NCBI GenBank assembly: GCA_016906335.1
Contig: JADEYG010000009.1
Location: 661,001-725,000, forward strand
Direction of reading: 5' to 3'
DNA: 64,000 nt
From: Novakomyces olei
Lineage: Eukaryota > Ascomycota > Novakomycetes > Novakomycetales > Novakomycetaceae
Made by a program: the position numbers and the translations under genes. A model generated the notes under the pieces. The model saw only the letters and a list, made by a program, of their open reading frames with translations, ran no database searches and was not told the origin of the DNA. Shown here piece after piece: positions 28,527 to 64,000 of the stretch. Positions within the stretch are counted from its first letter, which is position 1. Every line of letters starts with the position of its first letter.

Positions 28527-29911
28527 ATAATAGTGCACTATTCGAATTTCATCGGATCATGGTTTATTTAGCCAAACTCTTTAGTTGATTATTGATTATT
28601 GATTATTGATTATTGATTATTGATTATTGATTATTGATTATTGATTATTGATTATTGATTATTGATTATTGATTATTGATTATTGATTATTGATTATTGA
28701 TTATTGATTATTGATTATTGATTATTGATTATTGATTATTGATTATTGATTATTGATTATTGATTATTGATTATTGATTATTGATTATTGATTATTGATT
28801 ATTGATTATTGATTATTGATTATTGATTATTGATTATTGATTATTGATTATTGATTATTGATTATTGATTATTGATTATTGATTATTGATTATTGATTAT
28901 TGATTATTGATTATTGATTATTGATTATTGATTATTGATTATTGATTATTGATTATTGATTATTGATTATTGATTATTGATTATTGATTATTGATTATTG
29001 ATTATTGATTATTGATTATTGATTCGATTTCTCGATTGTTCGGTTATCTATTTGTTTAATTGTTTATTCATTCGCTAATTTCTATTTGAAACGTCTCTGC
29101 ATTGCATTTGCCCTTTACATTTAAAGTTACTCTCTCATATAATGAATATTGCGCAGTGATAATTGTCTGGTGGCTGTTTGACTGGTCGATATTCTGAAAC
29201 TAATTGATCATTATAGAAAACGTTTCATAATGTTACCTGATCTGCTCTTGTAAAATGAATATGATACTTCTGCCGTCAGTTGTATGCAAAACATGTAAAT
29301 ATATTCAAAATGCATTATTGACATGTTATTCACCATAGGACACAAATTTAGCTGATTAGATTAAAAACCATTTAATAAATAAATGTTGAATGAGATTAAA
29401 TAATAGTATAAAGATATATTTGCTGTATGGAATGGTTGCGTTTTATTGCTGTTAAATACGGTCACAATCACAAAACGGCGCGTATACAAACCACTGCAAT
29501 TCTTAGGCTCAGCGCGATTTTTACAGCAGTTTATTTAGTGCCAACAGATCTCTGATTTATCTTGCACATTAAACTACTTGTGCGCAGTCTGCCTTGCTCG
29601 ATTGATACTTAATAATAATTATTGTGTGCTAAATAATATTAAAAGCGGCCAGCGCACGTTGGCCGTAACGCACAGATAATAAAATAAAAATGTGTTCATA
29701 GACTAAATACAAATAAAACGCGAAGAACGAATTTACGCGCGGCCCTTTCTTTGATTAGAACCTCCAAAATTGAGGAGCTTTCAATCTCAATATTAAAGAG
29801 CTATTCTTCAACACCAATTGGTCAATTAAGCACTGAGCTTGAGGAGGCTTTTAATTCGCACTCGGCGCTGAAACAAATCGATATAACAGTATTGCTGGCT
29901 GTTGTCCAACA
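28527..29911. other. Intergenic between BUD4 and CDC11
   Basis: The first third is a 7-bp minisatellite. The remaining ~880 bp up to the septin start are AT-rich with no coding exon I can support. Confidence 0.5.
28587..29024. repeat. (GATTATT)n minisatellite, about 62 copies
   Basis: 438 bases of an almost perfect 7-base unit, starting 60 bp after the BUD4 stop. Because 7 is not a multiple of 3, all frames are hit by TGA. It is not a telomere-type G-rich unit. Confidence 0.97.
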
Positions 29912-56494: not shown

Positions 56495-58253
56495 TTATGC
56501 ATCAGACTCGCCTCTAGCGTACCGACGTTCAGGGCCACGGTAAGTGCCCACACCTTGAACATGAGTGTCAGGGTTCGAGTAATCGACCCACGGTTTCTGT
56601 GATTCACCCTTTATATTCAACATTGTGAAATAAACAAGCAATCCGCCGACCGTCAGTATGAAGGCGACCGGGTACAGCCAGTATACAGAGTATCCAAAAA
56701 GACCAACTCCGATAATGAGACCTGGATAGACGTTCAGCAGCTGGGCATTGAAACGCTGTTTCGAAAGTATCAAGGGAATTCAGCGAAAATGAATGCTATA
56801 CGAAAAAGCAATGCAGAAATGAACACGTATATTTTATATTAAATACAAGTCAGCATTTTGCAGATAAAAAGCCAACCTGCAAAATAGAGGAAATTGTAAA
56901 GAAAAAAAGGTGCTCAAACAAAATGTATGAGAACCCACAAAGCAATTTGAACACGTACCCCAAAAATCGGATGTTAGAATAGAGATATTGTAGAACGATG
57001 CACTTGACATGCGAAGAATAATCGGAACGAGCGAGTAGAGCAGCCACATACACAGAGTGTAGCCAGCCAAGTAGCCGCCAAGCTGATTATTCCAGGGAAC
57101 ATTGGCGATAGAGTGACGCTCAAAAATCACACAAATGATCCCATTTATAATAACGCCCCATGAGCCCCTAAAGTTAGCAAAAGGTTGACAACAAAGACGA
57201 TAAAAAGATGATACGAGTAAGAAATTAAAAAACGAATAAATGAACAAGACAGTAAGAAAACACGACAAAGGTATCAAGCTAATCCCTACATTTGACCAAC
57301 AACAACGTATAAAGGCTGCTTCGTGACCAAAAACTCTTCGAGAACGTTTGAAACACCATAACACGAAGCACCTGCCAACATGAACAAATCCCCCTTTACC
57401 CGGTTTGCAGCCTGGTAATTTTTGCCAGTTAAAACATCCGAAACCGTGAGGAGAGCAAGGCCGCCAATGCACATCGCAATACCCGTAATCTGAGTCCAGT
57501 GATAGCGGACTTCAAGGAAAATAAAGCTCAAAATGACGCACACAACCGTAGCCCATCCATCAAGCAATTGGCACGATAAAAGATTGGAGTATGCGTAAGC
57601 CATAACGACCAAATAATTGCCCACCACATCAAACAGGGACAAAATTGCAAATTTCCAGCCCTCGCGGTACAGCATAATAGCATAGCTTTTAATGCCCAAT
57701 TTATAAACCGAGAAAAAGGCGTACGTCACAGTTAATAAACAGTAGTTCAGGAATGACTGAAACGCCGGAATGTTGGCATTCTGAGCAGTAATGTCTGAAA
57801 CGTTAGTTCTAACGAAAAAATCGTAAGACAAGGAAACAAAAAGGCAAAAGATTGAGTTTAAAAAAGAAAAACCAAAGAAAATGCGGTCTCTGATTCTTCC
57901 GAGGCACAAATTAATAGTTCATAATCAAAAGAAGAACAGAATGAAAACTTACATGTAGTAAACGTGTTTGTGCCAGTAATGCACCACGATAAAATCTGTC
58001 CGATAAGAAGTGCGATCCAGAAATTTTTATGGAAAACTGCTTGAAACGGTTTTGCTCCAGGATCCTTTTGAGAGTAAAAAAGACGCTGCCAAATCGATTT
58101 CTTTTGCGGCGTGGGGTAATGGCTATCGTCGGCCTGCACATCGATGACCGTCTGCTTTACTGACCCCGCTCCTTCAATTCCCGTTTCGATCTTTCCCATA
58201 TTTTCTGTATCCTCGTATTTTGCATCTCTTATTTGTACGCTGTCTTGACCCAT
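56495..58253 (-). CDS. SLC35F-type (DUF914) membrane transporter
   Basis: Drug/metabolite-transporter superfamily protein of the SLC35F1/F2/F6 branch. Exons on the minus strand: 58253-57953, 57794-57290, 57167-56959, 56721-56495 (413 aa). About ten transmembrane segments. Family blocks: AQNANIPAFQSFLNY, KLGIKSYAIMLYREGWKFAI, VVMAYAYSNLLSCQLLDGWA, GDLFMLAGASCYGVSNVLEE and, across intron 3, ILTSDFWG|LIIGVGLFGY followed by YWLYPVAF. The cytosolic ends are hydrophilic; the N-terminus is acidic. Intron 1 ends AACTAACGTTTCAG and intron 2 TTGCTAACTTTAG. Substrate unknown; relatives are found in Golgi, vacuole or plasma membrane. Its 3' end is 131 bp from that of YKU70. Confidence 0.9.
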
Positions 58254-59055
58254 CCTTTAACTGAGTTTGGGGAGCTTTTTGATTGGGTTCGGTCGCCAGT
58301 GTGTCGAAGACTAAAAAATTAAAACAAAAACTTCAAACGTCTCGCGAAATTAGAGATCAGCAAGTACAATTATGTAATCTCCTATATATTACATTATTCT
58401 CTCTTCTACCAGTCGCATAATAAAAATTCCACTAGAAATATTGATTATATTTTTTTTGAAAATCGGTCTAATCAATAATCAATAATAAAAAAATGGATGA
58501 GACTGATGTAAATGCGACGGAAAATTGTTGAATTACAAAAAATAATAATAATACCAATTAATTAATAATTGAACAATTGAATAATTGAATAATTGAATAA
58601 TTGAATAATTGAATAATTGAATAATTGAATAATTGAATAATTGAATAATTGAATAATTGAATAATTGAACAATTGAATAATTGAATAATTGAATAATTGA
58701 ATAATTGAATAATTGAATAATTGAATAACTGAATAATTGAATAGTTGAATAGTTGAATAGTTGAATAGTTGAATAGTTGAATAGTTGAATAGTTGAATAG
58801 TTGAATAGTTGAATAGTTGAATAGTTGAATAGTTGAATAGTTGAATAGTTGAATAGTTGAATAGTTGAATATCAAAATTAAGACGGTGGCTTTTAGTTAC
58901 CCAGCAGCTGATATCTTAATTTATTTGCTATTGATGTACAAATGAACTAAACTATTCCGAAGACAGACAAAAATTGCAAAGATATTCACGACAGTCGTTC
59001 ATATCATACGACAAACTGATTACACAACAGCAATCTAATTACACAGTAAGCTAAA
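58254..59055. other. Intergenic with two-phase 8-bp minisatellite
   Basis: Between the SLC35F gene start and the kinase stop. Apart from the array it is AT-rich. Confidence 0.5.
58566..58871. repeat. 8-bp minisatellite: (AATTGAAT)n then (AGTTGAAT)n
   Basis: About 38 copies in two homogeneous blocks: the first ~22 units carry AATTGAAT, the last ~16 carry AGTTGAAT. Its minus strand reads as an eight-residue periodic frame (NYSTIQLF / NYSIIQLF), an artefact of the array. Confidence 0.95.
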
Positions 59056-60806
59056 TTACACATGAAATCTATTCTCAAAACATCCATTGCGAGTGAGCAC
59101 AGTACCAGCAGACGGCCGCACTTCGCATTGTATCGTGTCGTATGGTACATGTTCGCCGTCAAGTGAGATATAAGCATTGTTGCTTGGAATACGGGGTACA
59201 ATCCTGAAAGCCGAGCATTTTGTGTATTTCACATATGGCAATTCAAAATGCTTGCCAGACGGAATAGCTTGAAATATCTTGATCATCTGCCACCGGCTAA
59301 TTCGAGAATCAATCATAATTACGTCCATGAGCCCGTCTGTAGCCAAGCTTGTAGGAAAGAATAGCATGTCGCTGGAAACATAAGGCATTTTTCCAGCATA
59401 GAAAATTCCCAAATGATCACAGTTGAACTTTGTCCAGCCCGTCTTTCGTGGGTTAGCGGCATGCCCATACTTAAGAGTATCGACACCTATTTCACGGCTT
59501 AAATGATCATCGCCTTTGAATGAAGCAGGCGTTTCAGCTTCCCGAAAATGCTTTATTATATCCGTTTTCCTCTCGTGCTGAATCGCCAAATATATATCGC
59601 AAGGATAAGTAGTTTTTTTAACAATTGTCTTTAGCAGGACACCGTACGTAAATCGGAAATCGCCCATCCATCTATACGCACACAATTAGCAACCCAAATA
59701 AATATGTGAATAGAAAAAGAAGAATATCTCATAAAGGAGAATATTAAAAAAGACTAGAATGTTTGGACATGTCGTGTATTTCTCCAAGATGCTTACCTTA
59801 GATGTTCCGTTCCCAGGTCACAGTCAGCAATAGCTCCAAAACTAGTACTTAGGAAACTAATTGTAGAGTCTGCCGCAGATGCACGTGTAAACTCACACAA
59901 GTCAATTTTGGTCGGCATGCCTTTTATGATTGATAATGTGGCCTCACAAACAGCAGAGCTGCCATTTATGTTTAGAGATAAAGCATTTCCCGATCCGCCT
60001 GGAATCATGCTCACAGGCAATTCAAGCGCCCTGAGCGCATCTTTTCTCTTTGCGAGTCCGTTAAATATTTCATACGGCATTCCGTCTCCCGAAACGCAAA
60101 CGACCGCATCATATTTCTCTATGTCCAAATCCTTGGCTATCTCAAAGCCATGTCCCTGGTACTCAGTCCTGACTATATCCAAAGAGCATTGTGCCGCCTT
60201 TAAAAGGGGTTCAGCTATTTTCTTGAAATAATAATCAGCCTTTCCTTGACCACCATGAGGGTTTATTAGTACAAATAGCTTTTTGCGTATCTTAATATCT
60301 ACACAAAAAATTAGACGCAGATCAGTTGGACAAAAAAGATATACTTTTATACGCTCTGTGCAATAGGACATCTCTGAATTCCGCGGCTTCCTGCGGATCA
60401 GCTACATGTACAGACATGGTGACCTTTATATGATGACTACCCGATTTCCGGGCGTGAACGATTTGCAGACGCGACTGTTGAACATCAACCCATAATACGT
60501 TTTGAATTTCAATTGGGCCATAACCATGTGGCTTTTGACGCCCTTCATAATTTAGCACATTATCAAAAAGCAGATCAAATATACCGTATCTGAGTAGACC
60601 ACAGCAGCTCAATCTTCCGTCCCTTTACCTTGATTAGTCTTTTGTAAAGAATGATTTGTTGTATCGACACACCTATGTGGTGTAACAGCTTCCGTAGCTA
60701 TGCCTCGCACCGTCAACAAATCGGTTGCTATAGTTAATTCTACTTCTTGATCCTTGAGTCGCCCATTGATTCTAACTTCCATTAACCCCGACTCTTCTTC
60801 GTCCAT
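59056..60806 (-). CDS. LCB4: Sphingoid long-chain-base kinase
   Basis: Phosphorylates sphingoid bases (dihydro- and phytosphingosine). Exons on the minus strand: 60806-60673, 60622-60345, 60298-59797, 59671-59056 (509 aa). Introns are 50, 46 and 125 nt. Domain blocks: KLFVLINPHGGQGKA, CVSGDGMPYEIFNGL (ATP-binding SGDG), MIPGGSGNALS, SFGAIADCDLGTEHLRWMGD (split by intron 3) and the C-terminal LDGEHVPYDTIQCEV. The regulatory N-terminus contains a CC pair (RLSCCGLL), a plausible palmitoylation site like that of yeast Lcb4, and EIQNVLWVDVQ as in fungal homologues. Exon 1 and exon 2 lie in different frames, so the N-terminal join rests on phase and splice signals. Lcb4 or Lcb5 cannot be told apart. 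Confidence 0.92.
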
Positions 60807-62149
60807 GTTGGCCTTCCCAGAGTCAATTCGATAGCATAAATGTCTCGTATCGGCCCAAGAGTAAACACGGCGATTAATTTACAAATCGGTCATTTTATAT
60901 ATGCGGATCTATAAAGTATTTCTTATCTGAATGTACGCTTGATAACGACGCGTCGAATACGATGATAATCATTGAAGAGTACGGATGCGGTGGACAAAGC
61001 TTAAGGAATACGACTCGATTGTTTTGTGCATCAATTTTAAATTTAAGAGATTGTTCCATTTTCGAGTCTATTCATTCATTATGCGTCTAGCGATTACGTG
61101 CCAGTCAGCATGCGTAGTACTGCCGAGATTACGAGATCTATCGATAATAAGTGTGTTTCAGAGATTCGAGATTCGAGCTAGCGGTCGCTCAAATAGCTTT
61201 AATCTCATATAGCTTTCGACCAATCCCAAGTGAATCGTTCTGGAAAGTATCAGCAATAAGTAACGCTGAAGACAAGTAGTAGTATAGTTAGGTTTATATT
61301 AAATTTTTTGGAGGACAATGCATTACATTCTAAAATCTAAAATGGCTATAATAAATTAATTTGTCCAGTAAACATGAGTCAGTGCCAAAAGAATCCATCT
61401 ACAAGACGAAGGCAAGACGAAATGGAAAACGCAATAAATAATTTATGGGTTTCACAGTAGTATTCTAGCATTCGATTTGCTCTGCGCACGTGGAATTACA
61501 ATTGGGTGACGATGGATGATGATTTTGGTGTATACTTATTTGTTTGTTTGCTTTGCATTATAATTTATTATCATCATTCATATTCTTATTGAGACCGGAG
61601 GTATAATAAGTGCTGCTTTTAGCGTTGGGAATGAAAATTATGTTCGAGACATAGAGATTGCCTTGTCCGCCAGTGCGTGCTCGCGATTGAACTACGAATC
61701 AAACAGCAAACAATTCTACTACGTTTGATAAGATTTGTTTGTTTTAAACATGCAGGTTGAGTTGAGATTTAAAGTTGAAAATGGACTTTTTTCATTGTCA
61801 TGAAACGGGAATCTACTACATTAATATTTTTGATGTTTGTCTATAAAATTGTGATTAAGCATCAACGCAATGCTATGAATCTGCAGTTTTTTGCTCGCAT
61901 GTGGAAATTTGCGATCTTGGGCAGTAAATTCAGGTTTGTGTTGTAATCACGGCAGCCGATTCTTCGGATTCTTTTTGCGGCTTTGAGACAGGGCAGAATA
62001 GTTGTTGTGAAAGAATATCAGAAAAAATCTTATTTTGAGATGCTTCACGTCTCTGCGCGTGACTGAATCACTCAAAAGCAGCATTTGAGTTTACAGCCAT
62101 TTCACTATTAATACTGAAGCTCGCATGATGTAGAGGTACTTTAGGCATC
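60807..62149. other. Upstream region of the I9 inhibitor gene
   Basis: 1.3 kb with no gene I can support. The last ~590 bp (from 61559) belong to the direct duplication and so include the promoter of the inhibitor gene. Confidence 0.5.
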
Positions 62150-62317
62150 ATGCGACTAAAGACCTTTCTCTCTAAGGCACTGTGTCTCTGTGCAATCCTA
62201 CACGGAGCAAAATGTCTACCGGCAGGTACCATTTACTCTAGGGACACATCAGGTAAAAGAGTTGCGCATTTTGCAATAATGTTCTTGTTGACGCTTTGTG
62301 CAGAAGTACCGAAAATC
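61559..62317 (+). repeat. Direct duplication, copy 1 (about 759 bp as seen)
   Basis: Matches 63257-64000 over its whole visible length, with scattered substitutions, a ~16-base segment (around 61661-61680) missing from copy 2, and one diverged patch at about 61820-61838. It covers about 590 bp of 5' flank, exon 1, intron 1 and the start of exon 2 of the inhibitor gene. Ends do not look like LTRs (no TG...CA) and there are no inverted ends, so it is most likely a tandem gene duplication. Confidence 0.9.
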
Positions 62318-62746
62318 TTTATCGTTAAGCATAATACATCGTATACTGATTTGCAGACGCACGTTGCTTCATTAATGTAACCAATGCAATTTCTGCACCT
62401 TAATTTTAACCTTCTAGCCACTCTCACTTTATGGCAGATCTATCAGAGGCTGGAGGGGCAATTATACACGAGTTTGTATCTCTGTTTAAGTAAGGCATTT
62501 CACATCCACACTTGATTGCTCAATAAATCTTTTTCTTTGCTTACCTATTTTCTTAGAGGGGTTGCTGCCGAAGCAACATTTGGTGTATTTGAAACATTAG
62601 AAGAACGCTACTCGCCTATTTTTATATTCGAGTTAACCACACGTCAGGAAGGTATGAACAGTATACTTTCTCAAGTTACATTTTGGCTGATCAAATGTAT
62701 GTGGAATAAAGTGGCCAATTTGATTTCACAGGATAGGGCATCTTGA
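62150..62746 (+). CDS. Secreted I9-type protease inhibitor (Pbi2-like)
   Basis: Proposed exons: 62150-62252, 62304-62376, 62418-62489, 62557 onward, ending at 62746, or at 62736 if a further intron 62652-62731 is removed. Exon 1 encodes a signal peptide (MRLKTFLSKALCLCAILHG ... LPA). Exons 2-4 give an I9 fold: VPKIFIVKHNTSYTDLQTHV, then GGAIIHEFVSLFKGVAAEA and ERYSPIFIFEL. This matches the I9 pattern of yeast proteinase B inhibitor Pbi2 (FIVxLK..., GGxIxHEFxxxKG) and subtilisin propeptides. Introns 2 and 3 are 41 and 67 nt; intron 2 ends TTTTAACCTTCTAG. Intron 1 is 51 nt, in frame and without a stop, so it may be optional. No protease domain follows, so it is a stand-alone inhibitor. Pbi2 itself has no signal peptide. 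Splice model is by eye. Confidence 0.6.
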
Positions 62747-63832
62747 TGCAAGACATAGCATTTCTTTTTCACGACCCAAATGAGCTCAAATACGGCGCAA
62801 GCAGAATTAAAAGGCCAGCATATAGAAATAGATATACACAGGATTAAAATACAAACAGAGAGAGCTTTCTTAGCGCGTGCTTCTAATACAATATATAGTT
62901 TTTTGGTTTACTTTTTTGGACTGTATTGCTATTTTCTAGACAAATTGAGGTAAAACGTACTCAGCAAACGTGCATGCTTTAGGACAGATTCTGATTAAGT
63001 TCATTTTGTCATGAATGCACTTTTAACGCAAATGAGTATATAACGTTCAGGAACCGGAAATATTTGAGACGCTACTAATACATCGTCCGTATTTTCCCCT
63101 TGTGCATTTTATCTTCATTCCTAAATTTATGAGTTTTACTCTAGCCTTTTAGACTGTATCGTCTTCGCATCATTTACGTAACGCTCCGCTTATGTTTGTT
63201 CCTGCGACTCTGTCTTGCTACATCGGAGAGCTACAAATTTTTTGATGTTCGGACAATATAATTTATTATCATCATTCATATTCTTATTGAGACCGGAGGT
63301 ATAATAAGTGCTGCTTTTAGCGTTGGGAATGAAAATTATGTTCAAGACATAGAGATGCCTTCTCGCGATTGAACTACGAATCAAACAGCAAACAATTCAA
63401 CTACGTTTGATAAGATTTGTTTGTTTTAAACATGTAGATTGAGTTGAGATTTAAAGTTGAAAATGGACTATTTTCATTGTCATGAAACGGGAATCTACTA
63501 CATTACTGTTGAGGAATGATTGTCTATAAAATTGTGATTAAGCATCAACGCAATGCTATGAATCTGCAGGTTTTTGCTCGCATGTGGAAATTTGCGATCT
63601 CGGGCAGTAAATTCAGGTTTGTGTTGTAATCACGGCAGCCGATCCTTCGGATTCTTTTTGCGGCTTTGAGACAGGGCAGAATAGTTGTTGTGAAAGAATA
63701 TCAGAAAAAATCTTATTTTGAGATGCTTCACGTCTCTGCGCGTGACTGAATCACTCAAAAGCAGCATTTGGGTTTACAGCCATTTCACTATTAATACTGA
63801 AGTTCGCATGATGTAGAGGTACTTTAGGCATC
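62747..63832. other. Spacer and 5' flank of the second inhibitor copy
   Basis: About 510 bp of unique AT-rich sequence followed, from 63257, by the duplicated 5' flank. A minus-strand frame at 63190-63384 spans the junction and is not supported. Confidence 0.5.
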
Positions 63833-64000
63833 ATGCGACTAAAGACCTTTCTCTCTAAGGTACTGTGTCTCTGTGCAATCCTACACGGAGCAAAATGTCT
63901 ACCGGCAGGTACCATTTACTCGAGGGACGCACCAGGTAAAAGAGTTGCGCATTTTGCAATAATGTTCTTGTTGACGCTTTGTGCAGAAGTACCGAAAATC
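63257..64000 (+). repeat. Direct duplication, copy 2 (runs off the window)
   Basis: Offset of 1698 bp from copy 1 at the left end. The true right boundary is beyond the window. Confidence 0.9.
63833..64000 (+). CDS. Second I9-type inhibitor gene, 5' part only
   Basis: Exon 1 at 63833-63935 and the first 14 bases of exon 2 (from 63987) are present; the rest lies outside the window. Exon 1 differs from copy 1 by four bases, three of which change the residue (Ala10Val, Thr33Ala, Ser34Pro), while the 51-nt intron is identical. The signal peptide is intact, so the copy may be functional. Confidence 0.55.
   Translation, partial: MRLKTFLSKVLCLCAILHGAKCLPAGTIYSRDAPGKRVAHFAIMFLLTLCAEVPKI

Follow-up and report, generated by a model that had tools for sequence, protein, structure and literature searches.

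Results

We show that the genome of Novakomyces olei contains a small family of genes, with at least five copies, whose products join a conserved hydrophobic leader to a mature domain remotely related to I9 protease inhibitors, and that this mature domain is under strong diversifying selection between co-resident paralogs. One complete copy and part of another lie within the stretch of 64,000 nucleotides that was analysed as a whole, hereafter the window (C9:661001-725000; the assembly has 15 contigs and 14.34 Mb). Fungi were already known to have secreted single-domain I9 proteins, and the new part is the mode of evolution of the family. On balance, and by a modest preference, we read these genes as encoding secreted single-domain subtilase inhibitors of the I9 fold that would be diversifying against foreign proteases.

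Anatomy of the window gene

A check of reading frames and splice sites identified in the window a gene of four exons that join in frame across GT-AG introns of 51, 41 and 67 bp. This confirms the first-pass annotation, which had combined four exons into a leader followed by the motifs VPKIFIVKHN and GGAIIHEF...KG. The joined product starts with the leader MRLKTFLSKALCLCAILHGAKCLPAGTIYSRDTS, of 34 residues, and continues as EVPKIFIVKHN...GGAIIHEF...KGVAAEA...ELTTRQEG. Exon 1 (62150..62252; plus strand, as are all parts of the gene) contains the ATG and the leader; exon 2 (62304..62376) begins the I9-like domain with EVPKIFIVKHN; exon 3 (62418..62489) comprises its assumed helix region and the GGAIIHEF strand; and exon 4 (62557..62651), with GVAAEA...ELTTRQE, ends the domain. 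The intervening sequences are intron 1 (62253..62303, GTAAAA...TGCAG), intron 2 (62377..62417, GTAACC...TTCTAG) and intron 3 (62490..62556, GTAAGG...TCTTAG). A possible intron 4 (62652..62731, GTATGA...TCACAG) would be followed by a possible exon 5 (62732..62736) containing nothing but the last part of a codon and the stop (GA TAG).

The C-terminal tail is the least certain part of the gene, and it differs among copies under either model for intron 4. Splicing of this intron, at CAG, leads to a stop at 62736 and a protein of 115 amino acids, and reading through it leads to a stop at 62746 and 145 amino acids; the gene end previously placed at 62746 is thus right if 62652-62731 is not an intron, and wrong if it is spliced. 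The acceptor AG of intron 4 is missing from one of the four complete copies, that of contig C5. Read-through tails in the four copies result in proteins of 145, 126, 126 and 116 residues, and spliced tails in proteins of 115 and 124 residues, no product for the C5 copy, which has no acceptor, and 186 residues. There is no S8 catalytic domain in the same gene, with frame models ending at 115-186 residues.

We infer solely from the conserved hydrophobic leader that the protein enters the secretory pathway. The leader is variable at 5 of its 34 residues among the four copies, with a pooled pN/pS of 0.51 and, in the codon model described below, an omega of 0.45-0.64 that is not significantly different from 1. 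Its hydropathy is not distinctive when taken alone, being reached by 92 of the 531 open ATG frames of equal length in the window.

Two tandem arrays were also found in the window. One of them (58559-58871) contains about 39 copies of the 8-bp unit TAATTGAA, and is located between a gene for a diacylglycerol/sphingosine-kinase-like protein (59056-60371, minus strand) and a gene for an SLC35F-type transporter (57286-57909, minus strand); the other (28585-29024) repeats the 7-bp unit TTGATTA about 63 times and is perfect, with 100% matches over 440 bp. A fungal source is indicated by a response-regulator gene, which we take to be SSK1-like, and by 49 matches to PF04082, a domain of fungal transcription factors.

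Copies in the genome

A protein search of the genome located the leader at five places, corresponding to both window copies and to C9:556371, C5:183448 and C7:835750. The first window copy and the last three are complete, and a DNA search with the mature part likewise retrieved four matches, each spanning 660-661 of the 661 bases, in an assembly that is masked beyond the window end, where the second window copy would continue. The four complete copies all retain the ATG, the reading frame and the GT-AG ends of introns 1-3, which rules out that these are chance reading frames. The sole change in exon length among them is of 6 bp, in the C7 copy, and their mature exons contain no stops in the frame of the gene, with 15 and 24 stops in the other two frames.

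The second window copy (63254..64000, plus strand) is in tandem with the first, and was absent from the first-pass annotation. It includes the 5' flank, exon 1 (which begins at 63833), intron 1 and the start of exon 2, with the rest cut off by the end of the window, and is identical to copy 1 in 725 of 763 aligned columns. A family size of at least five gene copies, four of them seen complete, is a lower bound. A DNA search with the 5' flank produced matches at eight places, three of them partial (C5:141983-142500, C12:372501-372888 and C2:1409763-1410000), and these three, which all stop at a multiple of 500 like the masked stretches of other loci, may represent further gene copies.

The copies are part of a duplicated cassette, whose upstream part (61480..62149, plus strand) shows around 95% identity among the four complete copies. 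The cassette common to the window, C9:556371 and C5 copies spans about 1.8 kb, and some other pairs share 2.2-2.7 kb. The shared flank of the C9:556371/C5 pair includes a PIG-Y gene, with 15 differences in 563 aligned bases, which is intact beside the C9:556371 copy (L011, 2927-3490) and frameshifted beside the C5 copy (L012, 3005-3570), where the I9-like frame is intact. The C7 copy has a reverse transcriptase frame (L013, 7613-8992, minus strand; RVT_2 E 8.6e-58), presumably of the copia type, about 2.8 kb away.

Downstream of the window gene, the frame 62759-62953 ends in the hydrophobic stretch NTIYSFLVYFFGLYCYFLDKLR and is also open in the C7 copy, in which it would be joined to the I9-like domain if intron 4 were spliced. 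We rejected it as a conserved coding exon, because length differences shift the frame in the C9:556371 and C5 copies. When relatives were sought in viral contigs, 60 stretches matched a pattern, none of which was confirmed.

Relationship to I9 inhibitors

The window protein did not match any Pfam family at E<=10 with hmmscan, so that the I9 search on which the first-pass annotation had staked its reading goes, if taken strictly, against it. Likewise, neither the window protein nor the family profile matched PDB chains at E<=10, and NCBIfam contained no family for the four members. Nevertheless, the only family retrieved in whole-protein Pfam scans of the four paralogs was PF05922, with one of the four members and a best E of 0.017. 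Using mature parts, PF05922 was matched by the C5 paralog at E 0.0091, with a score of 17.1 bits that falls short of the cut-off (21.2). The window copy showed only a weak unrelated match, to zf-DBF (E 0.15), and neither of the remaining paralogs matched a Pfam family; PF05922 does not exceed its curated cut-off in any of the four.

With hhalign, the profile of the mature family aligned to a set of I9 sequences with a probability of 85.8 and a score of 33.0 over 36 of 81 columns; this set consists of four hand-picked sequences, among them the Pbi2-type protein from this genome, POIA1 (PDB 1itp) and the prodomain of a protease encoded on contig C1. When this prodomain was left out, the probability was 93.3 and the score 39.3, and the full-length family profile resulted in a probability of 80.4. 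None of 300 column shuffles reached the score (best, 19.5), and the reversed profile scored 11.1. Single members compared with the I9 set gave probabilities of 4.4, for the window copy, and of 67, 87 and 80 for the others. In the alignment, the Pbi2-type protein of this genome has GGKIKHTYNLTFKGFSAD opposite GGAIIHEF...KGVAAEA. As judged from these comparisons, the relation to I9 appears to be a real but distant homology. The I9 domain that had been assigned to the window protein can therefore be upheld as a remote one, by way of the C5 paralog and the profile comparison, although not with the window protein on its own, which retrieved no Pfam family.

The Pbi2-type inhibitor is encoded by a separate gene (C3:132301-132612, minus strand; L015), with one intron of 48 bp in the chosen model. 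Its product starts with MSESFIV, has no hydrophobic leader by eye and ends in DKEVHTQA; its N-terminus is longer than those of the PDB relatives, and the alignment begins at residue 21. These data support, at the level of remote homology, the earlier proposal of an I9 domain that follows a leader; the leader is hydrophobic and conserved, and the Pbi2-type gene of this genome lacks one of this kind. The yeast proteinase B inhibitor Pbi2 and POIA1 from Pleurotus (MEROPS I9) are stand-alone propeptide-like inhibitors, and the family profile aligns over the GG.I.HEF...KG core with the I9 set that contains POIA1 and the Pbi2-type protein from this genome. However, yeast Pbi2 is leaderless and has as its defining feature an inhibitory C-terminus of the V-H-T type, whereas the family described here has a conserved leader and a different, variable tail, and it is thus not Pbi2 proper.

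A search of the unmasked part of the genome for Peptidase_S8 identified at least three genes, which encode a proteinase-K-like protease with an I9 prodomain (on C1), a Kex2-type convertase with a P-domain (on C4) and a TPP2-type enzyme (on C12); none of them is on the contigs that carry the copies (C5, C7 and C9).

Diversifying selection on the mature domain

The four complete copies differ by 4-9% in introns and flanks, with the exception of intron 2 (14%), and by 4% in the leader, but by 16-22% in the mature exons. Mean p-distances were 0.053 for the upstream part, 0.044 for exon 1, 0.039 for intron 1, 0.155 for exon 2, 0.143 for intron 2, 0.220 for exon 3, 0.055 for intron 3, 0.165 for exon 4, 0.088 for the possible intron 4, 0.061 downstream of the gene and 0.038 further downstream. 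Variable columns are found in 70 of 234 positions of exons 2-4, 34 of 234 of the introns, 63 of 636 upstream and 25 of 215 downstream. The difference between exons and pooled introns is significant (Fisher p 8.9e-5), and also when intron 2 is left out (24 of 196, p 1.2e-5). The pattern is not perfectly confined to exons, in that intron 2, with only 41 bp, is nearly as divergent as they are. Even so, when the exon mask was slid along the alignment, none of the 1480 other offsets reached the observed value of 0.299, with the offsets of plus and minus 1 giving 0.295.

Nearly all differences in the mature exons change amino acids. Variable columns amount to 34, 22 and 14 at the first, second and third codon positions, respectively, out of 78 each, which is the reverse of what is seen in ordinary genes. 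Pooled over the mature codons, pN was 0.212 and pS 0.063, the dN/dS of the mature domain was 2.98-5.61 in the six pairs, and pN-pS was zero or lower in none of 1000 codon bootstraps. A purpose-written codon model estimated omega for the mature domain at 5.87, 6.86 and 7.09 on the three possible topologies of the four copies, with p from 3.6e-6 to 4.3e-7 against an omega of 1; these p-values are indicative only, because the pairs are not independent, the four copies are related and recombination is likely. Indeed, leader and mature domain favour different groupings of the copies, and gene conversion among them is therefore likely.

We discarded a mutation hot spot as the origin of this divergence, because the pooled synonymous divergence of the mature codons (pS 0.063) resembles the divergence of the upstream and downstream flanks. 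Gene conversion that homogenises the flanks was likewise rejected, since it would have to spare exons 2-4 and yet homogenise the 67-bp intron 3 between them.

Variation is unevenly distributed along the mature domain. With region boundaries assigned by hand from the order of strands and helices in I9, without a structure model, the proportion of variable residues rises from 2 of 8 in each of strands 2 and 3, through 4 of 11 in strand 1, 7 of 12 in helix 2, 3 of 5 in the turn, 5 of 8 in strand 4 and 3 of 4 in the tail, to 20 of 25 in the helix 1 region. The two strands with low variation correspond to GG.I.HEF and G.AAEA.F.

Discussion

The first-pass annotation had presented a leader-bearing I9 inhibitor as a novelty, but such proteins are already in print (passages of PMC4039746, PMC10455828 and PMC6993865). 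A survey from 2014 describes, in the passages concerned, 99 secreted single-domain I9 homologs in 97 fungal species, in which the sheets touching the protease are conserved and the exposed helices are more variable (PMC4039746). Among them, the SS1G_01593 family of ascomycetes consists of small secreted I9-domain effector candidates, and the family described here, whose members are probably small and secreted too, resembles it in having conserved strands and more variable helices. Nevertheless, according to the same passages, that family has about one member per genome with a PF05922 match, as opposed to at least five copies here and a PF05922 match below the cut-off in one of them; they do not report strong diversifying selection between paralogs such as that found here. 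Another I9-domain protein, Ap28303 of Austropuccinia psidii, was chosen as a secreted rust effector candidate and was located in the plant nucleus by the authors' GFP assay, with no paralog diversification described in the relevant passages (PMC10455828).

Stand-alone I9 proteins, as covered in part of PMC6993865, include Pbi2, POIA1, SPI-1, TgMIC5 and SUB1-ProM, of which SPI-1 is described in passages of PMC11371169. Plasmodium SUB1-ProM and Toxoplasma MIC5 are stand-alone propeptide-like proteins of the secretory pathway, as the proteins described here would be, and the former, with a predicted signal peptide, is a reported subtilase inhibitor; they differ in belonging to another kingdom and in being encoded by a conserved gene whose product acts on the organism's own protease (PMC6993865, in part). 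Pathogens also secrete inhibitors of other folds, which affect subtilases and other host enzymes or are predicted to block them (PMC1236909 and PMC10533508). The mode of evolution is shared with snake venom families, which show conserved leaders and introns together with fast mature exons, although these are unrelated animal proteins that have only this mode in common with the window family (PMC2711939, in part). A multi-copy I9 family under diversifying selection was not found in the titles and abstract openings among the matches listed in the literature, and this does not prove its absence.

In the reading that we moderately favour, of secreted subtilase inhibitors directed against foreign proteases, the protein would be directed by its leader into the secretory pathway, the beta-sheet of the mature domain would dock onto a subtilisin-like protease, and the C-terminal tail would block the active site of the protease, in the manner of free propeptides and Pbi2-type proteins. 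The targets would most likely be foreign and variable subtilases, from a host, prey or competitor, rather than those of the fungus, because the mature domain is under positive selection while leader, flanks and most introns remain near the neutral background; fast divergence in a genome with few subtilases of its own also suggests foreign targets. Several observations count against this reading, namely that the inhibitory tail is not fixed, that the window copy alone is only weakly I9-like, that the profile match extends over 36 of 81 columns, that no PDB chain was matched, that the leader is not distinctive in hydropathy and that intron 2 diverges nearly as much as the exons. The roles in trans proposed in the first-pass annotation are consequently not equally tenable: an outward-facing one, as in extracellular defence, fits best, since a mature domain that diversifies between paralogs with an omega of around 6, in a genome where three subtilase genes (a lower bound) were identified, is hard to square with a housekeeping propeptide-chaperone.

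A different function for the same secreted protein appears quite unlikely if it is that of an endogenous regulator, in essence a Pbi2 of the secretory route that would control in trans the proteinase-K-like subtilase of the fungus itself, whether vacuolar or secreted. The genome does encode a proteinase-K-like protease of the S8 type that carries an I9 prodomain, and there is a precedent in SUB1-ProM, which inhibits the SUB1 of the parasite itself (passages of PMC6993865); however, one or few targets within the organism do not predict an omega of around 6 between co-resident paralogs, a Pbi2-type gene already exists in this genome, and the three S8 genes identified lie on contigs other than those of the copies. 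It is also unlikely, though marginally easier to accept, that the I9 fold was reused without protease inhibition, as a diversifying secreted ligand, a recognition factor or the product of a selfish element that spreads by segmental duplication. The remote nature of the I9 similarity, the unstable C-terminal tail and the dispersal of the cassettes on at least three contigs, with one copy near the presumed copia-type frame, would all agree with it. Against it, the strands with which I9 proteins touch the protease in their complexes, according to the contact geometry in passages of PMC4039746, are among the most conserved parts of the family.

Two further alternatives concern the gene itself. Retention of intron 1 may occur, and we regard as rather unlikely, yet worth considering, an anatomy in which it is kept: it would add 17 residues and place a second hydrophobic stretch, VAHFAIMFLLTLCA, before the domain, and the protein would then be anchored in the membrane or have this stretch as its leader. 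Intron 1, whose 51 bp are a multiple of three, has no stop in frame in any of the five copies seen, and three of its four variable columns are synonymous when translated, where 22% would be expected. Conversely, its ends are canonical GT-AG, a TTGAC near the acceptor can be read as branch-like, and four variable columns are too few to decide. Finally, it is very improbable that the copies are a decaying repeat family without function, whose frames are mere leftovers, even if they are dispersed duplicates and one of them carries a frameshifted passenger gene; neutral decay cannot give mature exons about three times the divergence of most introns and flanks, cannot keep four frames open, and is contradicted by the dN/dS values and the codon model.

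Going beyond our preferred reading of secreted inhibitors against foreign proteases, we tentatively propose, as a possibility somewhat short of even, that the cassette disperses through the genome with near-constant leader, promoter region and, for the most part, introns, and that the copies are driven to diverge in their inhibitor domain, each becoming tuned to a different foreign subtilase. In the passages of the literature consulted, secreted fungal I9 effector candidates have so far come without evidence of an arms race. Here, introns and flanks provide built-in neutral controls, and an omega of around 6 across the mature domain between co-resident paralogs reveals which residues are selected and makes the question of the target testable. 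If the proposal is true, this fungus would possess a venom-like repertoire of inhibitors built on a domain that otherwise serves as a propeptide or a housekeeping inhibitor.
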